DNA from: a virus
DNA length: 25,209 nucleotides
Reading direction: 5' to 3' (one strand)
IMG/VR virus record: IMGVR_UViG_3300023103_000066
Coordinates: 1-25,209 of that record
Of the stretch, positions 4,564 through 22,937 are shown piece after piece; the first letter of the stretch is position 1; every line of letters starts with the position of its first letter. The position numbers and the translations under genes are program-made. The notes beneath the pieces were generated by a model, which saw only the letters and a program-made list of their open reading frames with translations, had not been told where the DNA came from and did not search any database.

Positions 4564-5907
4564 TTAAGAAGTTACCTGCTTAGAACCTGCGCCCGTATCA
4601 AGTGTGGTCAGAATCGTTTGTTTTGATCTGAATTCCAGTGTTGGATATTTCTTTTTCCAGCCATTGTATTCAGCCACAAAATTTAACGGTTCATATAGCA
4701 CATCCCGGTAAGGTTCGATTTGTGACAGATATATCAGCAGTGATTCGCGTTTATCAGACCCACCAGAACGGGATCCCATTTCCTTACTTGCAAAACCAAA
4801 CAGCGCCGGATCAATTCCCAATGCATAAAGCAAATGGGCAGTAGCTTCCATATTATCAGCCAGGTACGCACCATCTTTAAGTTTGTCAGGCAATGCATCT
4901 ATTTTCCAGCCTTCAATTGTTTTCATATCTATCGCACTCACACCGAATTCCGTAGCAATCGCAATTCCGGAATTTTCTACACCAATCAAACGGCGGTTAA
5001 TTTCCAACATCTTGTTTGTCCGGATCGTGTCCCGTTCAGATGCTGTTGCCTTTTCCCACTCTCCTTTATATTCTTCCTTCCAATATTCACGCGGAATCTG
5101 GATGTGGTATTTAATTGTCATCTGATTTTCAAACAACGCTTTTTTCAGTGCAGGGACTTTTTCCAGCACATCGAGCCAGCCAGAAGTGCGGATACCATCC
5201 CAATGTGCTAACTGATAGAATGTATTACCAGGTGTGGGGTAACTGGAAGGATAAATAAACTTGAAGACATTCGAATGTTTTTCCCGCGTCCAGTTGACTA
5301 AATCATACTCATACGGATCTAACAGGCGTATTTTTATCGTTTCTTCACTGGAAGCATAAGCATTTTGCCAGTTGGCATTGACATAAGCAAATTCAGAAAC
5401 ACCGGTATTTTTATTCTGCTGTCCAAAACGTGAATAAGCCGCTTCATTCGGGTGAATGTGGGTGATTTTCTGCCGGTTCTTTGACAAGATCAGCTCTGGG
5501 AATATGTTCAGGAACCAGAATATATCATTGGCAGTTTCCCGCACGTAACGTTTGAAATGCCTGTTATTCAGAAATTCCAGTATTTCAGGATCACGGACTT
5601 TCTGTAAAACCTCCTTACCTTCATCATCTTCATCTACCAAATAAGGTATGACCTTTTGACTGATCAGATTAGCCTGCCATTTCAAGGCTGTCGGTATAAT
5701 CGTACTTCGCCGGCCACGCTCTAAAACCTTTTGCGGAAAATCATTTGCAGATCCCCACGGAATAATTTCCTGTGAGCTGATCACCAGATTATCTTTTACG
5801 ATCGGCTGTGTGGGCTGGGCATTAGGAGCACCACCGCCGAAACTGACAACAGCATTGGAAGCAGGAAGCAGAGCCACTTTATTTTCTGGCAAAAATATTA
5901 CACTCAT
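4564..5907 (-). CDS. Phage portal protein
   Basis: The protein has 447 residues, in the usual range for siphophage portals. The N-terminal part contains the pattern WGSANDFPQKVLERGRRSTIIPTALKW, and the C-terminal third has GIDPALFGF followed by SRSGGSDKRESLLIYLSQIEPYRDVLYEPLNFV, both typical of Bacteroidota phage portals as I remember them. The portal forms the dodecameric ring at one vertex of the head through which DNA enters. It starts with a four-base ATGA overlap with the 103-residue gene. Large terminase lies upstream and a connector-like protein downstream, which supports the call. Confidence 0.82.
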   Translation of the reverse strand: MSVIFLPENKVALLPASNAVVSFGGGAPNAQPTQPIVKDNLVISSQEIIPWGSANDFPQKVLERGRRSTIIPTALKWQANLISQKVIPYLVDEDDEGKEVLQKVRDPEILEFLNNRHFKRYVRETANDIFWFLNIFPELILSKNRQKITHIHPNEAAYSRFGQQNKNTGVSEFAYVNANWQNAYASSEETIKIRLLDPYEYDLVNWTREKHSNVFKFIYPSSYPTPGNTFYQLAHWDGIRTSGWLDVLEKVPALKKALFENQMTIKYHIQIPREYWKEEYKGEWEKATASERDTIRTNKMLEINRRLIGVENSGIAIATEFGVSAIDMKTIEGWKIDALPDKLKDGAYLADNMEATAHLLYALGIDPALFGFASKEMGSRSGGSDKRESLLIYLSQIEPYRDVLYEPLNFVAEYNGWKKKYPTLEFRSKQTILTTLDTGAGSKQVTS

Positions 5908-9973: not shown

Positions 9974-10521
9974 TATACTGCTGCTGTTAAGTTCACAGTT
10001 GCAGTGTACAACAACCGCGATGGCTGGGTACAGGTAACAGTGAATTCGTACATAGATCCGTCACCTTCATTTTCGCCGTTGATTTTCTGGGCGGTCATGG
10101 TAGCGTGGTATTTGTTGCTACCCAGCTGATCGTAAGTACCATCAGGCATATTAGAATCTTCTACCAGCACAAGCAGTGGATAAATACTATTCGCAACAGC
10201 ATTGAACAGCGCAAGCGCACTCATGTTTTTGGATGGCATACGGAACACCATATTCAAAACTTTTGCACCACTGTTGTTACCACCAGCCGTAATATTATTT
10301 ACACCTGTATTACGGGTGATGTTAATCGTTTTGAACGACTTACCCGTTTTAAAAACATGGGGAGTAGTAATAATAAACGGATCTTCTGGCTTAAGCGGCG
10401 AGACGATCGGCGTCCCAAAAGTCAGGATATCATTCCATGCCGCGTAATGCAGCTTCAATTTTGTGCCTCCCATGTTGCTGCCGCAATCATCGTCAATCAG
10501 CACGTCAAATACAACACACAT
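9973..10521 (-). CDS. Structural protein, possible tail tube
   Basis: The protein has 182 residues and is beta-rich, with Thr, Asn and Gly throughout and no membrane segment. The C-terminal part (residues about 140-178, MTAQKINGENEGDG then MYEFTVTCTQPSRLL) resembles the beta strands of tail-tube-like proteins. It lies two genes after the major capsid protein and is one of the few plausible tail tube candidates in the window, but a head decoration protein would fit as well. The start is ATG after a 46-base AT-rich leader. Confidence 0.65.
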   Translation of the reverse strand: MCVVFDVLIDDDCGSNMGGTKLKLHYAAWNDILTFGTPIVSPLKPEDPFIITTPHVFKTGKSFKTINITRNTGVNNITAGGNNSGAKVLNMVFRMPSKNMSALALFNAVANSIYPLLVLVEDSNMPDGTYDQLGSNKYHATMTAQKINGENEGDGSMYEFTVTCTQPSRLLYTATVNLTAAV

Positions 10522-10567
10522 ATTTTTTTGAATTTAAAAAGCCCTGTTAACTATGAGAACAATGATA

Positions 10568-10978
10568 CTATTTGACCTCAGTCAAAAGCTGCAAAATGCT
10601 GCTCTCGTTATCAACAAGAACTTTCTGCAACGCTTTGTCTTCTTTTAATTGGGCAGCCGTCACTTCCTTCCCGCCCACACTGAACTTGGGTACAACGACA
10701 CGATATTTTTTTTTATCATGCGTAAATACTGTTGATTCAGTGAAAGTATCTTCTTTCGAAAGCTGCAAATGCTGATCCTCGATGATCTTAATTGCATCGT
10801 TTACCTGACTTGTCAGAGTAGCATTTTCTTTTACTTTCGCGTCCAAATCTGCCTGCAACTTTACATTCAAATCATCTCCTTTTTTGGCTTTTTCAACCAA
10901 TGTAGCATTTTCATTTACTTTCGCTGCCAGATCTGCCTGCAACGATTCAATAGTTGGTACTGGTTCTGTTACCGCCAT
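10568..10978 (-). CDS. Coiled-coil protein next to the capsid gene, with internal duplication
   Basis: The protein has 136 residues. Residues 13-27 (LQADLAAKVNENATL) and 41-55 (LQADLDAKVKENATL) are near-identical and 28 residues apart, exactly four heptads, so they extend one coiled coil. The C-terminal half is globular and beta-like (VFTHDKKKYRVVVPKFSVGG). It is the first gene after the major capsid protein. It may be a capsid-associated or head-completion protein; no family is recognised. Confidence 0.65.
   Translation of the reverse strand: MAVTEPVPTIESLQADLAAKVNENATLVEKAKKGDDLNVKLQADLDAKVKENATLTSQVNDAIKIIEDQHLQLSKEDTFTESTVFTHDKKKYRVVVPKFSVGGKEVTAAQLKEDKALQKVLVDNESSILQLLTEVK
10818..10943 (-). 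repeat. In-frame direct repeat within the coiled-coil gene
   Basis: Two nearly identical blocks of about 42 bases lie at 10818-10859 and 10902-10943, offset by exactly 84 bases, which keeps the frame and the heptad register. Similarity at the DNA level points to a fairly recent duplication. Confidence 0.75.
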
Positions 10979-11010
10979 TTTATTAGAACTTAAAAAAGGT
11001 TAAACAAATA

Positions 11011-11034
11011 TCCTTCCCCGTTACCAGGGAAGGA
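11011..11034 (-). terminator. Weak terminator or attenuator after the capsid gene
   Basis: TCCTTCCC (11011-11018) pairs with GGGAAGGA (11027-11034) in a perfect 8-bp stem with an 8-base loop, about 25 bases past the capsid stop. The minus-strand bases after it are T-rich but interrupted, so partial read-through into the following genes is likely. This would give more capsid than downstream product. Confidence 0.5.
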
Positions 11035-11057
11035 CTTGAATATTATTATTAGGCAAC

Positions 11058-12035
11058 TCAGGCCGCTCCATCATTCACCCAGACGATCTGAGGGATGATA
11101 AAACCAACACCAATCCACCAGTCACTCATCAGCTTAACAAAGCGCTCAAAAGCTTGGATATCAAAAATGCCTTTCATGTTTTGCAACCCTTTTGAAAGCA
11201 TAATCGCATTGGATTTTGGCGTGGTAAAGAAACGGTCATTTACAGCACCGCTTGCTTTCAGGTTCAACGAAGGCAACCCAACCAAATTGATGCTTGAATA
11301 ACGAATTGTTGTCACACCAGAAGCCGTGGCATCCGAATTTGTTAATAGGCCATATTTCTTGTCATAGCCTTTTTTGTATTCCAAAATCATCCATTCCGGA
11401 CAATATGTGGTCATTGCAATACCGCGGTATTGTATCGGCAAAGCTTTGTAATACGCTTCAAAATATTCAACTAACAAAACAGGATCAGTAGGCACTGCAC
11501 CCAATGCAATTGGAACAATATTGCCGGCTGTAACATGATCTGCAAGTAACTTCAAAATACCGTTCATAGCAGTTCCTGCTGCACCAGCAGTTCCAGCCGT
11601 TGGTGCAGCATACACACCACGGCCAATTTCATTCAGTTCCATATCCTGCTGGATCTGTGGAACGATCATCTTTTCAATCCAATACTTCACAAAAGGCCAC
11701 TCTGTACGCTTCACATCCATACTGGACAAAAAGCCTAACCAGGATGATTTGATATCGTCAGGAGTTTCAGAAAGATCTGCCTTGATATTATACTGGCGAA
11801 TTTCAACAGGTGTGAATTGTGCAGATCCAACCGGCGTAAAAGCCTTTTGGAAAGGCTGAACAATTCGGGTGTGACGGGATTCTGATGCACGCCAGATCGT
11901 ATCATCCGTAATAATATGGGTAAATGCCTGCTCCGTAACGAAACCTCTTTTCAACTGAGAATAGATGTCGTTTTGGTTCTGGCCGTGACTTAGGTAGTAA
12001 GCCCCAAATGCGGTTACAACTTCTGAAATAGTCAT
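11058..12035 (-). CDS. Major capsid protein
   Basis: The protein has 325 residues, normal for an HK97-fold capsid subunit. It is soluble, with a helical N-terminal arm (residues about 1-35), a beta-rich E-loop-like region at about 65-95, a Gly/Ala/Thr-rich linker near 145-160 (APTAGTAGAAGTAMNG), and a beta-rich C-terminus rich in Trp and Phe (KLMSDWWIGVGFIIPQIVW). It comes directly after the S49 protease gene, the standard place for the capsid gene, and a hairpin follows it. The fold itself is inferred; no short motif defines it. Confidence 0.78.
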   Translation of the reverse strand: MTISEVVTAFGAYYLSHGQNQNDIYSQLKRGFVTEQAFTHIITDDTIWRASESRHTRIVQPFQKAFTPVGSAQFTPVEIRQYNIKADLSETPDDIKSSWLGFLSSMDVKRTEWPFVKYWIEKMIVPQIQQDMELNEIGRGVYAAPTAGTAGAAGTAMNGILKLLADHVTAGNIVPIALGAVPTDPVLLVEYFEAYYKALPIQYRGIAMTTYCPEWMILEYKKGYDKKYGLLTNSDATASGVTTIRYSSINLVGLPSLNLKASGAVNDRFFTTPKSNAIMLSKGLQNMKGIFDIQAFERFVKLMSDWWIGVGFIIPQIVWVNDGAA

Positions 12036-12095
12036 TGCTTAAATTTAATTGAAGATGAAGTGTAATTTTTTACTCGTATTCGTCAGTGCAAATGA

Positions 12096-13358
12096 TCAGT
12101 AACCAGCGTCTCTGGCTTCTTTTTCAGAAGGTAATTCCTGAATTATTTGCTGCCATGTTTTTGTGTCACCTTCTCCTGCCGGTATTTCGTCAGCAGTTTT
12201 GGTTACACGTGTTCCCATTGCACCAGGCTGCTCACCAAATTCAGTCACCTTAGCCTGTAAAGCATCACGTTCGGTGGTCAGGGTACTTACCTGGCTGTTC
12301 AGCGTGGTAACCTGCAAAGTGGCTTCATTAGCAGTTGTAGTCAGGGTTGTAACCTGCTGCAATGCGGCATCTCGCTGAGCAATAAGCTGCTCAATGGTCG
12401 GAGCGTTTATAGACTGCTCCGGCTCTTCCTCAGAAAAGATCTGCATTATTTTCTCTTTTAGTCCCATTTGTATACTTGATTGTTTGGTTGTACTCTGCAT
12501 ATCAGCCAGTAGCGAAAATGTATCAGTCACACTGACAATCTCATCAATCAGCCCTTTTTCAATTGCTTCCGGAGCAAAATAGATCCGGCCTTTCTCCACA
12601 TCCTTGCTCAGTTTGGCCCCACGTCCGGTTTTCATATCAGCAATGAACTGATCATTCAAAACACCCAGATATTGTTCAACCAATTTGGAATTCTTACCAC
12701 CACTTTCAATCAGCTGCCGGTATTCCTCATTTTTCTCTGTGGATCCGGGAGCATAGATATCAAAGCTTTTTAAGCCCATTTTGGCATAATACTCCGTCCA
12801 GTCCGTGTAGCTCTGATACGTTCCGATTGATCCTATCTGATCGGTTGGCTGGGTAGCAACTATTTTTTTAGCACCTGCCATCTGGTATAAAGCAGCGCTG
12901 GCCATTGTACCATCTACCACCACCAAAAGCGGTTTTGGGAAATTCAATACACCCTGAAATACTTCACGCGTTCCGGCATTTTGTCCACCAGGTGAATCTA
13001 TTTTAACCATCACTGAACCTACCATATCATCGCTGGCCAGCTCATTCAGGTAATACAAAAAGTTTTTGGAGGAATTATAGCCGTATTTGTAGATCGGACC
13101 TACAAGCGAAATAACACCCATTGCAGAAGCTTTTCCGGTCAGTTCACTTTGTGCAGAAGATTGGAAAACACCGTTTTTGGATTGCATAAACGCCGTTTTC
13201 ATTTCCGGCCATATCGCTTTCATGTCTTCTCCCCGATCGGCGCGTGCCATCTGGTCAGCGTGTTGGTAGAGCCACGTAGGATCTATAAGCCAGTTCCCGC
13301 TAAGGCACCTGGCTATTGTTGTTAAGAAAGCATGTTCAGAGTGGTTTGCGTTGTGCAT
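12096..13358 (-). CDS. S49-family prohead protease with C-terminal scaffold-like coiled coil
   Basis: I chose the ATG at 13358 (MHNANHSEH); a GTG at 13379 in the same frame would add seven residues. Numbered from the GTG, the S49 domain shows KIDSPGGQNAG (126-136), the nucleophile in GTMASAALYQ (Ser161) and QIGSIG (181-186); Lys216 in PGSTEKNEEY is the candidate general base. After about residue 305 comes an acidic linker and a long Thr/Gln/Leu coiled coil (TIEQLIAQRDAALQQVTTL and onward), as in phage proteases fused to their scaffold. The product should help build the prohead and then cut itself and the scaffold. It is adjacent to the capsid gene. Its leader carries a G-rich repeat tract on the opposite strand. 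Confidence 0.88.
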   Translation of the reverse strand: MHNANHSEHAFLTTIARCLSGNWLIDPTWLYQHADQMARADRGEDMKAIWPEMKTAFMQSKNGVFQSSAQSELTGKASAMGVISLVGPIYKYGYNSSKNFLYYLNELASDDMVGSVMVKIDSPGGQNAGTREVFQGVLNFPKPLLVVVDGTMASAALYQMAGAKKIVATQPTDQIGSIGTYQSYTDWTEYYAKMGLKSFDIYAPGSTEKNEEYRQLIESGGKNSKLVEQYLGVLNDQFIADMKTGRGAKLSKDVEKGRIYFAPEAIEKGLIDEIVSVTDTFSLLADMQSTTKQSSIQMGLKEKIMQIFSEEEPEQSINAPTIEQLIAQRDAALQQVTTLTTTANEATLQVTTLNSQVSTLTTERDALQAKVTEFGEQPGAMGTRVTKTADEIPAGEGDTKTWQQIIQELPSEKEARDAGY

Positions 13359-14645: not shown

Positions 14646-15185
14646 TTATATTTTGCCCAGCAGCATGCCTGGCATAAAATTAGAAAATTCAGACCTTACT
14701 GTATTATTCCGCTCCCGAAAGCGCAGATAAATTTTCCGGATCCGTTCATCATTCAAATCCTTTTCGTACATGCCATACCGCACCCGGAAATCATTGATGG
14801 CCTGCTGGATATTGAACACATTGCCGGTCAGACGGAGAATTTCCATATCGTGCAGGATTTCCAGATAGATGAATTTCATAACAATATTATTGAACTGGAT
14901 CAGCCGGCGTTCGGGCAGCAGCACATTGTCCTGGTACCGGAGTGGAATGGAATATTGCCAGCTTTCGGTATAACCGCGGCGCAATGCCACTTCTTTGGAA
15001 AAACATTTAACCTGTGTTGTCTTCCGGGTGAAAGCATTTATGAGCCAAAGCCCGACAAAATCATCCTGCGTGGCAAGATAAATCGAAGGTTTCCACCTTT
15101 CCAGATACTTTTTTACGGGAACACTTACCGGCATGGTATGGGAAACAACACGCGGATGTGACTTGGTACTTCCTGTCAAAATCAT
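14646..15185 (-). CDS. Unknown protein at the head of the late block, 179 residues
   Basis: I start it at the ATG at 15183-15185 (MILTGSTKSHPR); a GTG at 15200 would add five residues. The protein is strongly basic and aromatic (VKKYLERWKPSIYL, EVALRRGYTESWQYSIPL) with a helical, charged C-terminal half (DLNDERIRKIYLRFRERNN). No domain is recognised. As the first well-supported gene after the iteron region and before the structural genes, with a nucleic-acid-binding composition, it could be a late-gene activator; that role is only inferred from place and charge. Confidence 0.65.
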   Translation of the reverse strand: MILTGSTKSHPRVVSHTMPVSVPVKKYLERWKPSIYLATQDDFVGLWLINAFTRKTTQVKCFSKEVALRRGYTESWQYSIPLRYQDNVLLPERRLIQFNNIVMKFIYLEILHDMEILRLTGNVFNIQQAINDFRVRYGMYEKDLNDERIRKIYLRFRERNNTVRSEFSNFMPGMLLGKI

Positions 15186-15208
15186 AGTTGATGAATTCAC
15201 TTCTAAAT

Positions 15209-15434: not shown

Positions 15435-15690
15435 AAGTTTGTAATTTCCTATAATCTACTCATTATCAGAGTTATAAGTCTGTAATTATCTGTTTCAAGT
15501 TTGTAATCAGCTCCAAAAAGTTTGTAATCCTGTAATTCTGTAATGAAAAGTGCTTTCTCCTCTATAAGAGATTACAAACTTTTTGTAATTCTTTAATTAA
15601 AATTACAAACTTAAAAAATAACTGTAATTACTGATTTTCAGACTTTTAAGCCTAATTATCGAGAAACATTACAGAATTACAAATATTACC
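15435..15690. repeat. Iteron array, candidate replication origin or operator region
   Basis: Direct copies of AAGTTTGTAAT lie at 15435-15445, 15497-15507 and 15518-15528, with AAGTCTGTAAT at 15476-15486. The last three are exactly 21 bp apart and the first is 41 bp away, so all face the same side of the helix. Shorter CTGTAAT copies follow at 15530-15536 and 15538-15544. Inverted copies ATTACAAACTT lie at 15571-15581 and 15602-15612, one forming a dyad with TTTTGTAAT, and further ATTACAG/ATTACAAA copies reach 15684. The stretch is AT-rich and has no gene. Evenly spaced iterons beside AT-rich DNA fit a Rep-type origin or an operator array. Confidence 0.65.
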
Positions 15691-15851
15691 GGACTTTTAT
15701 GAATGAGGGGTTAAAGGGGAGCCAAAAGGCGCAAACAAAGACAAAAACAGTGAGCGCGGGAATTGAACAATTTCTTTATTTCTGTAACTCCGTTTCCTTT
15801 TTGAATACCGGCTGCTGCTCCGGACTTCCAGTGGCTAATCCATAAACAAAA
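15691..15851. other. Gene-free stretch between iterons and terminators
   Basis: No supported gene lies here. It holds GGGGTTAAAGGGGA (15707-15720), close to a block at 13431-13444, an AATTGAACAATT dyad near 15761-15772, and a CCGG-flanked GCT repeat near 15810-15823. No promoter box with the full Bacteroidota consensus was found. Confidence 0.4.
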
Positions 15852-15875
15852 AAACAACTAATTTCTTAGTTGTTT
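15847..15875 (-). terminator. Second of two tandem terminators ending the early block
   Basis: AAACAACTAA (15852-15861) pairs with TTAGTTGTTT (15866-15875) around a four-base loop, followed on the minus strand by a T-rich run. It backs up the terminator immediately upstream. Confidence 0.75.
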
Positions 15876-15880
15876 GATTC

Positions 15881-15929
15881 AAAAAAACGCCACGATAATT
15901 ACAGGGGAAAAGCTGTAAATATCGTGGCG
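15881..15929 (-). terminator. Strong terminator ending the early block
   Basis: CGCCACGATA (15888-15897) pairs with TATCGTGGCG (15920-15929); an inner TACAG/CTGTA pair extends the stem. On the minus strand seven T follow. It starts four bases after the stop of the 76-residue gene. Confidence 0.88.
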
Positions 15930-15933
15930 TGGG

Positions 15934-17323: not shown

Positions 17324-17563
17324 TCAGTATGGGTTACAGTCAAAATCATTGTCGTTGAAAATTGCATTATTATCAACAAATCTATTTTCAGCGACAGGTA
17401 CAGGATTAAAGATGTCTTCCACCACTACATCCAGCTCCTTTTCCTTCAACTTCGAAGCAGCAAGTATTTTTTTATCCCGAAACCTGCCGGATCCGGATGC
17501 GAAGTATGCCTTTTGCAAGTCCCGCACTTCTTTTACGAGTTGTGCCAATGCTAATGTTTTCAT
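17324..17563 (-). CDS. Small early protein, 79 residues
   Basis: The N-terminal half is helical and basic (LAQLVKEVRDLQKAYF); the C-terminus is acidic and Asn/Asp-rich (FVDNNAIFNDNDFD). It is coupled to the ASCH-like gene by an ATGA overlap (17560-17563). No family is recognised. Confidence 0.57.
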   Translation of the reverse strand: MKTLALAQLVKEVRDLQKAYFASGSGRFRDKKILAASKLKEKELDVVVEDIFNPVPVAENRFVDNNAIFNDNDFDCNPY

Positions 17564-18183
17564 AATAAGCCTTGTTTAGTATGTTTTTCAAAGACAATCA
17601 CCCACACCCACGGGTTCTTTATCACCGCATCATCACCGTTTATGCTGATAAATAGTGAGAAGAAAGAGTTAACCGGATCGTTTGTAGCGTTCAATTCCGG
17701 GTATGGCAGGTACATTTTATAACTCTTTTTGTCGGGAGCTTCCGGCCATGGCGCCATTACTTCAATTCCTTCTGCAATAGCATCGGAGGCTGATATATCC
17801 TGAATCCTTTCTATCCTTATATCAGTAATTTTTAACCGGGTACGGGAAAGGAATCTGGTTTTTCTCCTTTGATTATTAGGATACAGCATCTTATCAGCAT
17901 CTACCTGTCCTTTACTTTGTTCAATAACAATTTCCTGAACCCAAAGCAGATCCCCAATATTTCCGTATGGACATTTGATGAATTTTGGAATAATGTTCGT
18001 TCCAATCTTTCCCATTCTAACAACCTGATTTCCCTTTGAATCAAGCCCTAAATAATCCAGTACATAGGAATCAGGGTTTTCATTAATTGTATCCAATCCC
18101 CTTGTACGGCGGGTCATGCTTTTGCGGCCAGCATCCAGTGCCTGTACCATTTCAGTGTTGAATAATATTGGTGATTCTTTCAT
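17560..18183 (-). CDS. ASCH/PUA-like phage protein
   Basis: The protein has 207 residues. It starts MKESPILFNTEMVQALDAGRK followed by SMTRRTRG, the typical opening of phage ASCH-type proteins (a short beta strand, then a helix ending in a TRR motif). It also has GDLLWVQE near residue 77, the helix ISASDAIAEGIEV, and a C-terminal strand NPWVWVIVFE. ASCH domains are PUA-related and are thought to bind RNA or modified nucleotides. The gene lies 12 bases after the methyltransferase and may act on nucleic acids in the same early programme. The biochemical role in phages is not settled. Confidence 0.78.
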   Translation of the reverse strand: MKESPILFNTEMVQALDAGRKSMTRRTRGLDTINENPDSYVLDYLGLDSKGNQVVRMGKIGTNIIPKFIKCPYGNIGDLLWVQEIVIEQSKGQVDADKMLYPNNQRRKTRFLSRTRLKITDIRIERIQDISASDAIAEGIEVMAPWPEAPDKKSYKMYLPYPELNATNDPVNSFFSLFISINGDDAVIKNPWVWVIVFEKHTKQGLL

Positions 18184-18195
18184 TTGTTAGTTTAG

Positions 18196-19824
18196 TTAAG
18201 CTGCTTTTTGATCCATCATTTGAAGACCCTTATCAAATACCTCGTACCATAATTTGATGTAAATCGGCGGCACGCTGTTTCCTATGCATTTTTTCTTATC
18301 GGTTTCTGAACCCAGCAATACATAGTCTTCCGGAAAGCCCTGAATCACTAATAGTTCCTGAGACAAAAGCATGCGCATCAGGATATCAGATATCCCGTAA
18401 TGAGCCATGAAAACTTTCAATTTCTTTACGGCCAGACAATCGTGTTTATTAATAATAATTACCGGCTTTGTTATTGTTTCGGCAGTGATCAGAGCCAAAT
18501 GAGGATTGACAGTTATGCACGCAGCGGGCTCATTTATTCCGGAAGGCTTGCTTTTTCCATACTGCTTATCAATAAAATGGGTTTCGATCAGCCCAATCCT
18601 GTCCTTTGTCGTGAGCGTACTGCAAGGATCTTCCATTCCGAAGTGACCACCGGCACCATAATATTTTATACAGAATTGTTCCATGCTCACCAGCGCAAGC
18701 CGGTTTGCAGTAGTAATGGTTTGTGCAGGATCATTCATGGACTTCACCCTGTTTTCCGGTGAACCTGAGTAGTACGACATGACGAATGGCTCCATCTGAA
18801 TCAAACCAAAACCGTCCTTTGTAGTAATTGTAGAGCAAGGATCCGACAGGCTGAAATTCATTCCATCACCGGAAAAGTATTTTGTCATGAACGACCTGTC
18901 ACCACTTCCAACATGCCTGAAACAGCCTTCCAGAATACGCTCGTATGTTTTTTCACTTAAAGGCGGATCGCGAAATATCGACTTTCCTTTTACTTCCAGC
19001 TGCAAACAATCTCTTATTGCTTTCCACTTTTTCAGATGCTTGTTTTTGTTAATCAGCAGATCCGGGTTTTTAGCATGCGTCTGCTCCGGCCATATCTGCA
19101 TATCAGGATTTAAAGAAAAAACAGCGAAGTAACGGGTACGGGAAGTATGAGCACCCACATCAGCAGTATTATGAAGCCGGTGCCCATAAACATATCCCAG
19201 GTCTTCAATTCCTGTTTTCCATTCTTTAAAGAAAGTCCCTTTTAACTTTTTAATGGGAACAAGATGTGGCTTAAAACCTATGATAGTTTTGTTTTTGCCT
19301 TTTCCTGACATGATCGGCACAAGGAAAGAAAATGCATAACCTTCTTTGGTCTTACCTTCTTTGGGTTCCATTGGTCCCCAATCCATAAATTCACGCACAT
19401 TTTCAACTGTGAACATGTCCGGATTCAATGTTTTAAGGTAAGCCGGCATAAATTCAGCCAGACTCCTGCTATCCGGGTCCCTTTCCATGCCGCCCCGGGC
19501 ATGGCTGAAATGTGTGCATTCCAGGGAAGCATGAAAAACTAAAAGCGCATCAGGGTAAAGTATTTTAGCGTCATTCACGACGTCCAATAAACGATCTGGT
19601 AAAGTATTGTCCCGGACATCTTCAACAAAATGGACAGTTTCCGGATGATTGCGGGCATGTGAAGCAATTGCATTTGCATTATGATTAATTCCTGCAATGA
19701 CAACAGCTATTCTATCTCCATTTTCATCCACTGCTTTTTCAACTCCTTCTGTGTAACCGCCTGCTCCACAAAAGCTATCCACCACGATGAACCTGATTTT
19801 ATGAGGGATTATTTTAGTTTTCAT
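18196..19824 (-). CDS. C5 cytosine-specific DNA methyltransferase
   Basis: The protein has 542 residues. Motif I is DSFCGAGGYTEG (16-27). The catalytic loop is ASLECTHFSHARGG (99-112) with Cys103 in place of the usual GPPCQ surroundings. Motif VI is TVENVREF (139-146), motif VIII TSRTRYF (227-233), and motifs IX/X QGFPEDY (495-501) and CIGNSVPP (513-520). Between VIII and IX, residues about 312-446 form four related units with the core DPxxTITT. It should methylate cytosine in phage DNA to protect it from host restriction, or alter host DNA. No restriction enzyme gene lies beside it, so it is an orphan. It sits between the primase-helicase and the ASCH-like gene in the early operon. Confidence 0.9.
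   Translation of the reverse strand: MKTKIIPHKIRFIVVDSFCGAGGYTEGVEKAVDENGDRIAVVIAGINHNANAIASHARNHPETVHFVEDVRDNTLPDRLLDVVNDAKILYPDALLVFHASLECTHFSHARGGMERDPDSRSLAEFMPAYLKTLNPDMFTVENVREFMDWGPMEPKEGKTKEGYAFSFLVPIMSGKGKNKTIIGFKPHLVPIKKLKGTFFKEWKTGIEDLGYVYGHRLHNTADVGAHTSRTRYFAVFSLNPDMQIWPEQTHAKNPDLLINKNKHLKKWKAIRDCLQLEVKGKSIFRDPPLSEKTYERILEGCFRHVGSGDRSFMTKYFSGDGMNFSLSDPCSTITTKDGFGLIQMEPFVMSYYSGSPENRVKSMNDPAQTITTANRLALVSMEQFCIKYYGAGGHFGMEDPCSTLTTKDRIGLIETHFIDKQYGKSKPSGINEPAACITVNPHLALITAETITKPVIIINKHDCLAVKKLKVFMAHYGISDILMRMLLSQELLVIQGFPEDYVLLGSETDKKKCIGNSVPPIYIKLWYEVFDKGLQMMDQKAA
18487..18891 (-). repeat. Four-fold protein repeat in the methyltransferase target-recognition region
   Basis: Units at residues about 312-345, 347-380, 384-415 and 417-446 share the order: Phe plus basic/aromatic strand (YY or QYG), Gly/Ser turn, N/D-[DE]P, then TI/LTT..R.[GA]LI. 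They are divergent, so duplication is old. Variation here is expected to set the DNA target. Confidence 0.65.
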
Positions 19825-19853: not shown

Positions 19854-22800
19854 TTAAAAAGTCATATCTTCTTCATCCCCACCACCTTCACCCGGGAACA
19901 ACTCTTTCTGCTCCGGCACAGGCATCACTGGGCTGGGTTTTGGTGTTTCCACTTTTGGCAAACCGGTTAATCCTGATGTATCGATGTAAAACATTTCAGT
20001 TGATTTGCCATCTACATTCACGATGATACGGCGGTTGTCGTTCGACATATCCACAGGGTTAAGGATGAATCCGTACAACTGGCACCATGCTTTCAGTTTG
20101 CCCAAAAAGCTTTGCGGGGACATTTTAACACTGGTTTTGAAAAACGAATCCTGTGCTTCATCACGTGGTGTTTTGACATCCAGCCTCTTTGCTTCATTGC
20201 TGAAATACACATCTGCCCAGGACTTGAAGTTGTCACCCATTTTCGCCATCAAATTTCGTTTCGATACGTTTTCTGATGGGGCACGTACGGCATCTTCGCA
20301 GGCCAAATAAAATTTCAGGCATTGTGCACCAAGATTGTAGGCGTAATTCTGTTGTACCTGGTCAAAATCATCCAGCAGATCCAGACCAAAATCATCTTTT
20401 GGGCTCCAATCGCTCCGATAATTTCCGTTGGCGTTTTTGTGGTAATAATCTGAGTAGACCGTATACATTTTCCTGCGCTGTGAACTCGGATCCGTATGCT
20501 TATCGCCATAATTGGAGTTAAACCAAAATTTCGGGCTGTCCTTAAAGGAAATAATGATAGACTTTACATTCTTCCGGTTCACGACCATATCCGATGTAAG
20601 CGGCTCAAAGAATGGCCCGAAGTCCAAGTGCTGGTGTGTATCATCCACCAGGATCAGATCAGATTCCCGCGTTACGTTTTCGAACATAAATGCGTTCTCC
20701 GTCATTTTTTCAGACCGTCCCGGAAGTGGAACCACACGGGAAAACAATTTAATAAACCGGGTAATCAGCGATTTACCGGATCCACCGTGGCTTTCACCTT
20801 CTTCCGAAAGTTTGGAATCCATGCCCCACACTGCCCACGGCCGGCTGCTTACTTTCCAGCGGTGCAGCGCATAACCAATCACATAGATACGGTTTGCCAA
20901 ATGTGCCTGCTGTTCAGCCTTTTCCGCTTTGGTCAGCAATTCACCGGCAATGTTCACATGGTTTGCAGCACGGTAAGCCGCTTTGCTCGTTTCGTCTTTA
21001 CTGTGTTTTTCAATGGCCGCAAGCTGATCAGCGCCCAAAGCATGGTTATTTCGGTATTTTTCTTGCTTTTCAGCAGTGTCATAATTCTCGTAGAAATCCA
21101 GACGTTCTTCCAGTTCTTCGCGCCAGTGCACCCGGCATGTCTGGATCAGGAAGTTCAGGAACTGACAATCCGTTTTCAGAATATCAGCTTGCCAGTCGCC
21201 ATTGGCCAATTTCGTGAATTTGAAATAATCATCTTCCTTTTTGGCCTTATGCTCCTTCACTTTGCCGTTTACCAGCGTTTCAATTTTCAGGATCTTATCA
21301 TCCCAAACGTATTTGCCAGTCGCGCCTGGTGCCAGCTCCTGTATGCCGTTTCCGGTTATTTTCCAGGTTACATTATTGAAAAACAGATACTGATAATCGG
21401 CTCCATAAGCTTTAAAGTCCAGCTCACGGACCGGTATATTAGACAATGAAGAATCCGATAATTGCGGAGAACGGAAGAATGCATTACGAAGATCTTCCAG
21501 GGAGTCCCGGCTGGCCAGAAACGTATGTAAAAAATCTTTCAGTTCACTGGCTTCTATTTCCCGCACAATGTTGTTATGCACATGCACATACACGAAACCG
21601 TCTTTTGTCTTATCACTTTTCAACCGGTGATAACCCATCCGGTACAGAAAATTATAGATACGAAGATTGTTAGGCTTGTATTCCAGCATCATCCTGCCAA
21701 ACTTCATTTTAATATCTCCGTCTTTATTCCGCAAATAATCCACATCCCAGAACTCGTACGGCAGAGCAGTATTCACCAGCAATTCAAAATCCCGTTTCCG
21801 GTAAGTGCCTTTGAGATTTTCTTTCTGAAAACGCAGATAATCCCGCAGATCCTTATAGTAAGGTTTGCCTTCATTATCCCTTGCTTCCAGCATACGTTCC
21901 GGCAGCCAGATCGTTCTCATATCCAGAAACTGCAAAGCCATTTTGTGCCCCTGAATAATCCCGGTTACATCAATATCAGGCAGATTATAAAAGAAATCAC
22001 AGATCTTCCGGAGCTCAGAGTATTGGTATTCCGTCCATTCTTCCGATTCAGAATTACGCCAGACAACCTGATATCCCAATGCAGCCGTATTCAAAGCATC
22101 GGATCCACCACTGCAATTAATAATGGCAGGCAATTTCTTTTCCCTCCGTTCTTCTTTTTTCTCAGCATCCGTCATTTTATCATAATCCTTCCCGCTGCCT
22201 TTGCTCAGTTCTTCAAACTTGGCATGAGCCTGGGATAGTCCATGAATAAACACCCGCGGCTTTTCTCCCAGATAACGGAAACGGTCTTTCTTGTCTGCTT
22301 TTGGTTCGTAAAACCTGCCCCAACGATCCGTTTCAGTGCCTTCCTCATAGATAAAGATCGGGTAACGGTCATTGCTGGTGAATTCATGCGTAATACCTTT
22401 ATTGGTAAAGCGTTTCCATTTCACACTTTTCAGGTGATAGTACGCAAACAGGTTTTGAGCAAGTCCCAGCCGTTTAGCTTCCTCCTTATGCAAGGCCGAC
22501 CATGCAGCATCCACCAGAACATGTTTAATTTCTTCGGTGGTCAGTTCCTTGGTTTGGTAGGTTGTTTTCCCATCCTGTTCATCCGGTTTGGCTGGCCAGC
22601 TGTTGTAGTCAGGCCGTGGCAATTCCACTTTTGCACCACCAATTTCATAGAAAGCCGCTACTGCTTTCAGCGCCGTAACAAAATCAATTCCATCTTCCGA
22701 CATGGCAATATGGATGGCATCCTTCATTTTCCCATCCCCGCCAAAGTCCGTTACGCCCCACTTTCCATCCGGCAATTGTTTCAGCTTGGCAGATGCATGT

Positions 22801-22937
22801 TTTTCAGTGTCCCGGATCTTAAAACCCTTCCGCGGATCCGTATCACATCCATCTGCCTGCGGGTAACGGGAAAGGATGTACCTTAACCCGCCGTCTACCG
22901 CCATCACATCATTTAGGTCAATATTATTTGCACTCAT
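19854..22937 (-). CDS. Primase-helicase, D5-like, 1027 residues
   Basis: The N-terminus (FKIRDTEKHASAKLK, then WGVTDFGGDGK) matches the primase zinc-ribbon fold pattern but without the zinc-binding cysteines. Residues about 228-300 look like a Toprim core (VFIHGLSQA, then PAIINCSGGSDALNTAALGY). The C-terminal part is a superfamily 3-type ATPase: Walker A GGSGKS (718-723), acidic DD in LILVDDTHQHLD (765-766) and a sensor-like KFWFNSNYG (about 800-808). It should open and prime the phage DNA, with the iteron region a possible loading site. It is the largest early gene and ends 29 bases before the methyltransferase start. Confidence 0.85.
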   Translation of the reverse strand: MSANNIDLNDVMAVDGGLRYILSRYPQADGCDTDPRKGFKIRDTEKHASAKLKQLPDGKWGVTDFGGDGKMKDAIHIAMSEDGIDFVTALKAVAAFYEIGGAKVELPRPDYNSWPAKPDEQDGKTTYQTKELTTEEIKHVLVDAAWSALHKEEAKRLGLAQNLFAYYHLKSVKWKRFTNKGITHEFTSNDRYPIFIYEEGTETDRWGRFYEPKADKKDRFRYLGEKPRVFIHGLSQAHAKFEELSKGSGKDYDKMTDAEKKEERREKKLPAIINCSGGSDALNTAALGYQVVWRNSESEEWTEYQYSELRKICDFFYNLPDIDVTGIIQGHKMALQFLDMRTIWLPERMLEARDNEGKPYYKDLRDYLRFQKENLKGTYRKRDFELLVNTALPYEFWDVDYLRNKDGDIKMKFGRMMLEYKPNNLRIYNFLYRMGYHRLKSDKTKDGFVYVHVHNNIVREIEASELKDFLHTFLASRDSLEDLRNAFFRSPQLSDSSLSNIPVRELDFKAYGADYQYLFFNNVTWKITGNGIQELAPGATGKYVWDDKILKIETLVNGKVKEHKAKKEDDYFKFTKLANGDWQADILKTDCQFLNFLIQTCRVHWREELEERLDFYENYDTAEKQEKYRNNHALGADQLAAIEKHSKDETSKAAYRAANHVNIAGELLTKAEKAEQQAHLANRIYVIGYALHRWKVSSRPWAVWGMDSKLSEEGESHGGSGKSLITRFIKLFSRVVPLPGRSEKMTENAFMFENVTRESDLILVDDTHQHLDFGPFFEPLTSDMVVNRKNVKSIIISFKDSPKFWFNSNYGDKHTDPSSQRRKMYTVYSDYYHKNANGNYRSDWSPKDDFGLDLLDDFDQVQQNYAYNLGAQCLKFYLACEDAVRAPSENVSKRNLMAKMGDNFKSWADVYFSNEAKRLDVKTPRDEAQDSFFKTSVKMSPQSFLGKLKAWCQLYGFILNPVDMSNDNRRIIVNVDGKSTEMFYIDTSGLTGLPKVETPKPSPVMPVPEQKELFPGEGGGDEEDMTF

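Follow-up and report, generated by a model that had tools for sequence, protein, structure and literature searches.

A repeat array that is probably a P4/PICI-like replication origin of a broad family of Bacteroidota phages, with a candidate initiator recognition code

The likely replication origin of a widespread group of Bacteroidota prophages is an array of short repeats between the early and late genes. We studied it in a 25,209-bp IMG/VR virus record whose main genes all lie on the minus strand (the whole stretch is called the window below) and in which the array occupies positions 15435–15690, with repeat units in both orientations. The best explanation of the comparative data, and one in which we place considerable confidence, is that the array is a phage replication origin used by the phage's own SF3 primase-helicase (19854–22937, minus strand), in the manner of the alpha protein of satellite phage P4. 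The C-terminal winged helix of this protein would bind the dispersed iterons, an oligomer would assemble and open the adjoining A/T-rich segment beside a C-rich tract, and the same protein would then unwind and prime the DNA, as alpha does in P4. We infer physical binding, unwinding, priming and initiation at the array from comparative sequence evidence, namely the array itself, its conserved layout, its near-universal tie to one primase-helicase family, the predicted winged helix and covariation between residues and bases. Counting against an origin are a GC skew that does not flip, exceptions to the main covariation rule, a few loci with no clear array, and the 4.2 kb between array and primase gene in the window. 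Natural variation in this system would amount to an initiator–origin recognition code, for which short oligonucleotides and a small protein domain would be enough as test material. Should the code hold, sequence could suffice to assign origins to uncultured phages, and the protein alone to predict them; incompatibility between co-resident prophages could become predictable, and the co-evolution of a multi-copy binding site with its reader would be open to experiment.

The array holds 12 TGTAAT/ATTACA units within 15438–15683; read on the late-transcription strand, their core is ATTACA(A/G)A. A sequence-only reading of the window had reported AAGT(T/C)TGTAAT at 15476, 15497 and 15518 with a further copy 41 bp before and inverted copies beyond, and exact positions bear this out: the direct copies start at 15435, 15476, 15497 and 15518 (steps of 41, 21 and 21 bp), inverted ATTACAAACTT starts at 15571 and 15602, and other units start at 15531, 15539, 15584, 15623, 15668 and 15676. 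The 21-bp periodicity claimed in the same reading is exact for three copies, but it is local to the window array and not a property of the family, in which the commonest same-strand steps are 8, 11–13 and 22–23 bp. In a 271-bp region the 12 units compare with a mean of 0.4 in shuffled sequence (maximum 4 in 5000 shuffles), and six long units with 0.002. No second cluster comes near that density in the entire 25,209-bp window. The region is free of genes, as had been noted, in that no ORF of at least 50 aa overlaps 15435–15690, and an Rfam search gave no match.

On its early side the array is preceded by two tandem T-tailed hairpins (RNA fold z = -8.5), a long one at 15887–15930 and one of 10 bp at about 15852–15875, both on the minus strand, which close the early transcript right before the array, where the sequence-only reading had placed early terminators. 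With two terminators, read-through of early transcription into the array is unlikely. The first iteron pair (15668–15683, TTTGTAATTCTGTAAT on the minus strand, 8-bp step) sits at the early edge of the array, as the same pair does in many relatives. Next to it is an A/T-rich spacer (15603–15667) that holds TCTGAAAATCAG (15631–15642, minus strand) and is a candidate unwinding element. About 25–40 bp outside the first pair lies a C-rich tract, CCCCTTTAACCCC (15707–15719, minus strand). The early module also encodes a C-5 cytosine methyltransferase (18196–19824, minus strand) and, adjacent to it, a phrog_874 gene (17560–18183, minus strand).

Near DNA relatives of the window were absent from the phage collection, and single-protein scans with the primase, terminase or capsid protein gave no matches. 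The window primase-helicase is 33–35% identical over 95–98% of its length to those of Polaribacter phage Leef_1 and Bacteroides phage BT-TP2, which carry arrays in the corresponding place, of the GATTACAAA type at about 29140–29410 in Leef_1 and of the GGTTACAAA type at about 5047–5300 in BT-TP2. An alignment of these three primases was the only scan query that worked, and it retrieved 80 viral loci and 80 loci from bacterial genomes, the latter all Bacteroidota. Some contigs stop short of the expected place, and nearly all of those with enough downstream DNA have a comparable array between the replication and late genes. By a simple G/A-NN-ACAA pattern, 63 of the 163 contigs hold at least 7 sites per 300 bp downstream of the primase gene, compared with 4 for a reversed-motif control (both counts summed from score distributions). 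De novo motif finding mostly gave 9–17 copies per array of a 9-mer with the usual core GTTACAA and recovered the variants GTTAAAGAA, GATAAGAA and CTCTTACAA, which the simple pattern misses; it returned no clear array motif in five loci (L025, L093, L101, L107 and L114). A further search of about 1180 genomes supplied a held-out set of 32 loci. The sequence-only reading had named lack of conservation in relatives as the result that would count against it; array position and layout are instead conserved across Bacteroidota phages. Prophages with this primase family are found across the phylum, including gut Bacteroides and Prevotella-type hosts. A literature search, with many subscription journals outside its reach, found no description of these arrays or of how these phages replicate. 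The array-bearing family is widespread and little studied.

Across the family the elements follow a common order, read with the primase on the plus strand: early terminator, C-rich tract, T/A-rich stretch, first iteron pair (often TTGTAACTTTGTAAC, with an 8-bp step), A-rich spacer (often with GAAAA/AATCA) and, spread across some 250 bp, iterons in mixed orientation. Between about -30 and +120 relative to the first pair the DNA has a mean relative stability of 0.85–0.89 of the genome mean, so that both the window spacer and the family stability profile place an A/T-rich, low-stability segment among the iterons. The C-rich tract is strand-asymmetric and conserved in the family just outside the first pair: CCC-N1-8-CCC occurs at -75 to -15 from that pair in 37 of 62 aligned loci (control windows: 4, 5, 1 and 1), and only 2 loci have the GGG equivalent there on the same strand. 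The tract may be a priming site, a site for a protein or a structural element. In many Bacteroidales relatives the array lies within about 500 bp of the primase gene, a compact layout unlike that of the window. GC skew, which had been proposed as a check, gives an origin no help: third-position skew does not flip across the array, and the small difference there has the wrong sign for a bidirectional origin.

The proposed initiator is a 1027-aa protein with an SF3/DUF5906-type AAA+ helicase and, C-terminal to it, a predicted winged helix. The helicase shows a Walker A motif (GESHGGSGKS, residues 714–723), a Walker B motif (ILVDD), a conserved N at 809 and an AAA+ fold, as expected for SF3. Its structural model has a pLDDT of 82.9, and the closest PDB entries by Foldseek are the SaPI5 primase-helicase, mpox E5/vaccinia D5 and AsfvPrimPol (E 1e-8 to 1e-6). 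Pfam DUF5906 matches 7 of 21 family members weakly, and Pfam has no clear match for the primase region. The winged helix (residues 888–986; 19980–20276, minus strand) is predicted as helices 888–911, 925–933 and 941–954 and strands 922–924, 971–975 and 978–986, mostly at pLDDT 75–94. The residues proposed to read bases are D926, at helix 2, and four residues of the wing, R970, I972, N974 and G977.

We aligned the motif of each locus to GTTACAAA and tested every primase column against it. K or R at position 974 accompanies G1 iterons in 64 of 68 loci and A1 iterons in 1 of 11 (P = 7e-9). Position 974 was first noticed in an exploratory scan and the K/R grouping was picked after the residues had been viewed; because of this post hoc choice a full scan over six groupings was run, in which K/R974 with G1 came out on top among 5556 column-by-grouping tests. 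When the base was simulated 5000 times on the primase tree, no run gave an association as strong (phylogenetic P = 2e-4). For other bases, counted over loci with the tree ignored, the top primase column for T2>A (the GATACAA types) is 926, with R in 5/6 versus 0/78, and for T3>C it is 972, with Q in 5/5 versus 1/72. T3>A has position 746 as its top column, with K977 in a tie for second place. When changes are followed branch by branch, 974 leads the 920 columns whether only G1 changes or changes of any kind are counted, and 970 leads them for loss of C5; on their own these P values fail correction for 920 columns. Motif letters were hand-set for L160, and those of L024, L122 and L151 did not enter the co-change test. 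Of 79 arrays with C5, 78 have R970, yet so do 3 of the 6 that lack this base, and the residue follows C5 only partly.

The window agrees with the 974 rule (iteron ATTACA, N974), as do four of the five held-out loci that are not near-identical and have a clear G1 or A1 (L252, L255, L258 and L233; not L231). The rule is broken by L052 (A1, K974), L231 (G1, N974) and four loci that combine G1 with D, E or Q. Positions 926, 970, 972, 974 and 977 all belong to the winged helix, and most of them to its wing. Whole-distance correlation between motif and protein is weak (Spearman 0.28 for the primase, 0.11 for the small protein discussed below), and co-change of the wing as a region is not significant (P = 0.085); the covariation signal resides in single residues. 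These residues point to the winged helix of the primase-helicase as probably the reader of the repeats, which favours an origin over a pure operator. The sequence-only reading had suggested a protein-bound origin or multi-site operator with the primase-helicase among the candidate binders, a proposal that conservation and winged-helix covariation now lend support. We lean, by a modest margin over even chances, towards a specificity code in a widespread, undescribed class of Bacteroidota phage origin, in which residue 974 (K/R or not) would set G1 or A1, 926 (R) A2 in place of T2, and 972 (Q) or 977 (K) C3 or A3, with 970 (R) contributing to base 5, initiator and origin having repeatedly changed together.

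Among known systems, lambda-type origins have direct O protein iterons beside an A/T-rich segment, with a separate initiator and the host DnaB as helicase. The array resembles them in its direct iterons adjoining an A/T-rich segment, but here the candidate initiator is the helicase itself. In P4, the winged helix of alpha binds the origin repeats, after which unwinding and priming follow (PMC4234260); by that description alpha combines, as the protein studied here would, a primase, an SF3 helicase and a C-terminal winged helix for origin repeats. Unlike P4, the Bacteroidota phages have capsid genes of their own and would have their origin ahead of the late genes, their primase region lacks a clear Pfam match and their iteron sequences are unrelated. 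PICIs have their origin 3' of rep, where iterons surround an A/T-rich region (PMC6092414). The combination of SF3 primase-helicase, iterons and A/T-rich segment downstream of rep is shared with PICI/SaPI rep-ori, and the best fold match of the primase-helicase is a SaPI protein; multiple short iterons are present as in P4 and PICIs, with covariation making the phage's own initiator the candidate binder. However, instead of two iteron sets flanking one A/T region we find a mixed-orientation spread of about 250 bp, a C-rich tract lies at one edge, the window array is 4.2 kb from rep and not immediately 3' of it, and these are phages, not satellites. Because iteron layout, C-rich tract and genome setting differ, we do not file the system as a member of either group. 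The crenarchaeal plasmid pRN1 likewise encodes a primase-helicase that ends in a winged helix, and its origin lies downstream of this gene (PMC4234260), but that origin is a stem-loop without iterons.

The alternative that survives best is a double role, in which the array is an origin and binding by the primase-helicase or the small protein also times late transcription. All of the origin evidence fits it, as does the constant placement before the late genes; nevertheless other proteins could drive late transcription, and we hold a double role to be possible, at a minority chance.

We consider it improbable that the array is instead a multi-site operator for the late operon, with the orphan protein (about 162–184 aa) encoded just past it (14646–15200, minus strand) as the binder. 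This protein has a confident AlphaFold model (pLDDT 88.5) and no PDB fold match; of the families tested, none in Pfam or PHROG and no relevant one in NCBIfam matches it, and its only clear structural relative is a Leef_1 neighbour gene product. Of 100 dereplicated loci, 88 encode a member of the family (a relative is, for example, L070:4426–4920); its alignment proved too variable for scanning contigs, and whole genomes were searched in their place. The array lies between the early terminators and the first late gene, always ahead of a late operon, and its distance to the small gene is tight (334–616 bp, 10th–90th percentile; median 407 bp) compared with that to the primase gene (157 to 5058 bp; median 703 bp, up to 8.7 kb); taken alone, this would speak for an operator, or for a small protein that acts in cis. 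Against this, no small-protein column has an association that survives correction and its co-change is much weaker than that of the primase; five arrays have no small gene (L106, L109, L151, L163 and L164), in four loci it is 3–7 kb away (L104, L098, L113 and L154), and no TTTG-TAnnTTTG promoter lies within the array. One related phage (L177) has kept the small gene but has a DnaG-type CHC2/TOPRIM primase (10016–13282, minus strand), and its array, at about 12480–12740 in reverse-complement coordinates, has a similar layout with an unrelated iteron, GTTCCACA; a swap of replication module and origin beside a retained late module is possible. Arrays with the small gene missing or distant, this locus and the covariation together argue that the replication protein is the reader.

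A non-coding, repeat-rich region at the head of the structural genes could also be a packaging (cos/pac) site to which the small terminase binds, but we rejected this as very unlikely: the iterons show covariation with the winged helix of the primase, and in the window about 7 kb separate the terminase gene from the array. In Leef_1, for which cos ends are predicted (PMC8776804), the record begins directly after a terminase-like gene, presumably at cos, far from the array at about 29140. Chance or low-complexity repeats, although the region is A/T-rich, were rejected as having practically no likelihood, contradicted by shuffles that never come close to the observed unit count and by the excess over the reversed-motif control in relatives.

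More distant primases (about 28–32% identity) often go with arrays of very different repeats, such as AACGCACTA in L242 and AACAGTACG in L248. Remote primase-helicases with dense unrelated repeats (AACGCACTA, AACAGTACG, CAGTACAAA and CGTCAAA) occur in L242, L248, L241 and L238, and the wing is shortened or missing in the alignment for the first three. Two Siphonobacter loci (L104 and L098) have iterons of a TTTACA type, and a gene for a protein of 1217–1219 aa, possibly a tape measure, stands between array and small gene; their late module is rearranged. Microcystis phage Mea-Yong924-1 (L004), related by its terminase, has a different primase and no such array; near 11721 it carries a different candidate regulatory array, with TCGGACA eight times within 260 bp, next to a gene of opposite orientation.
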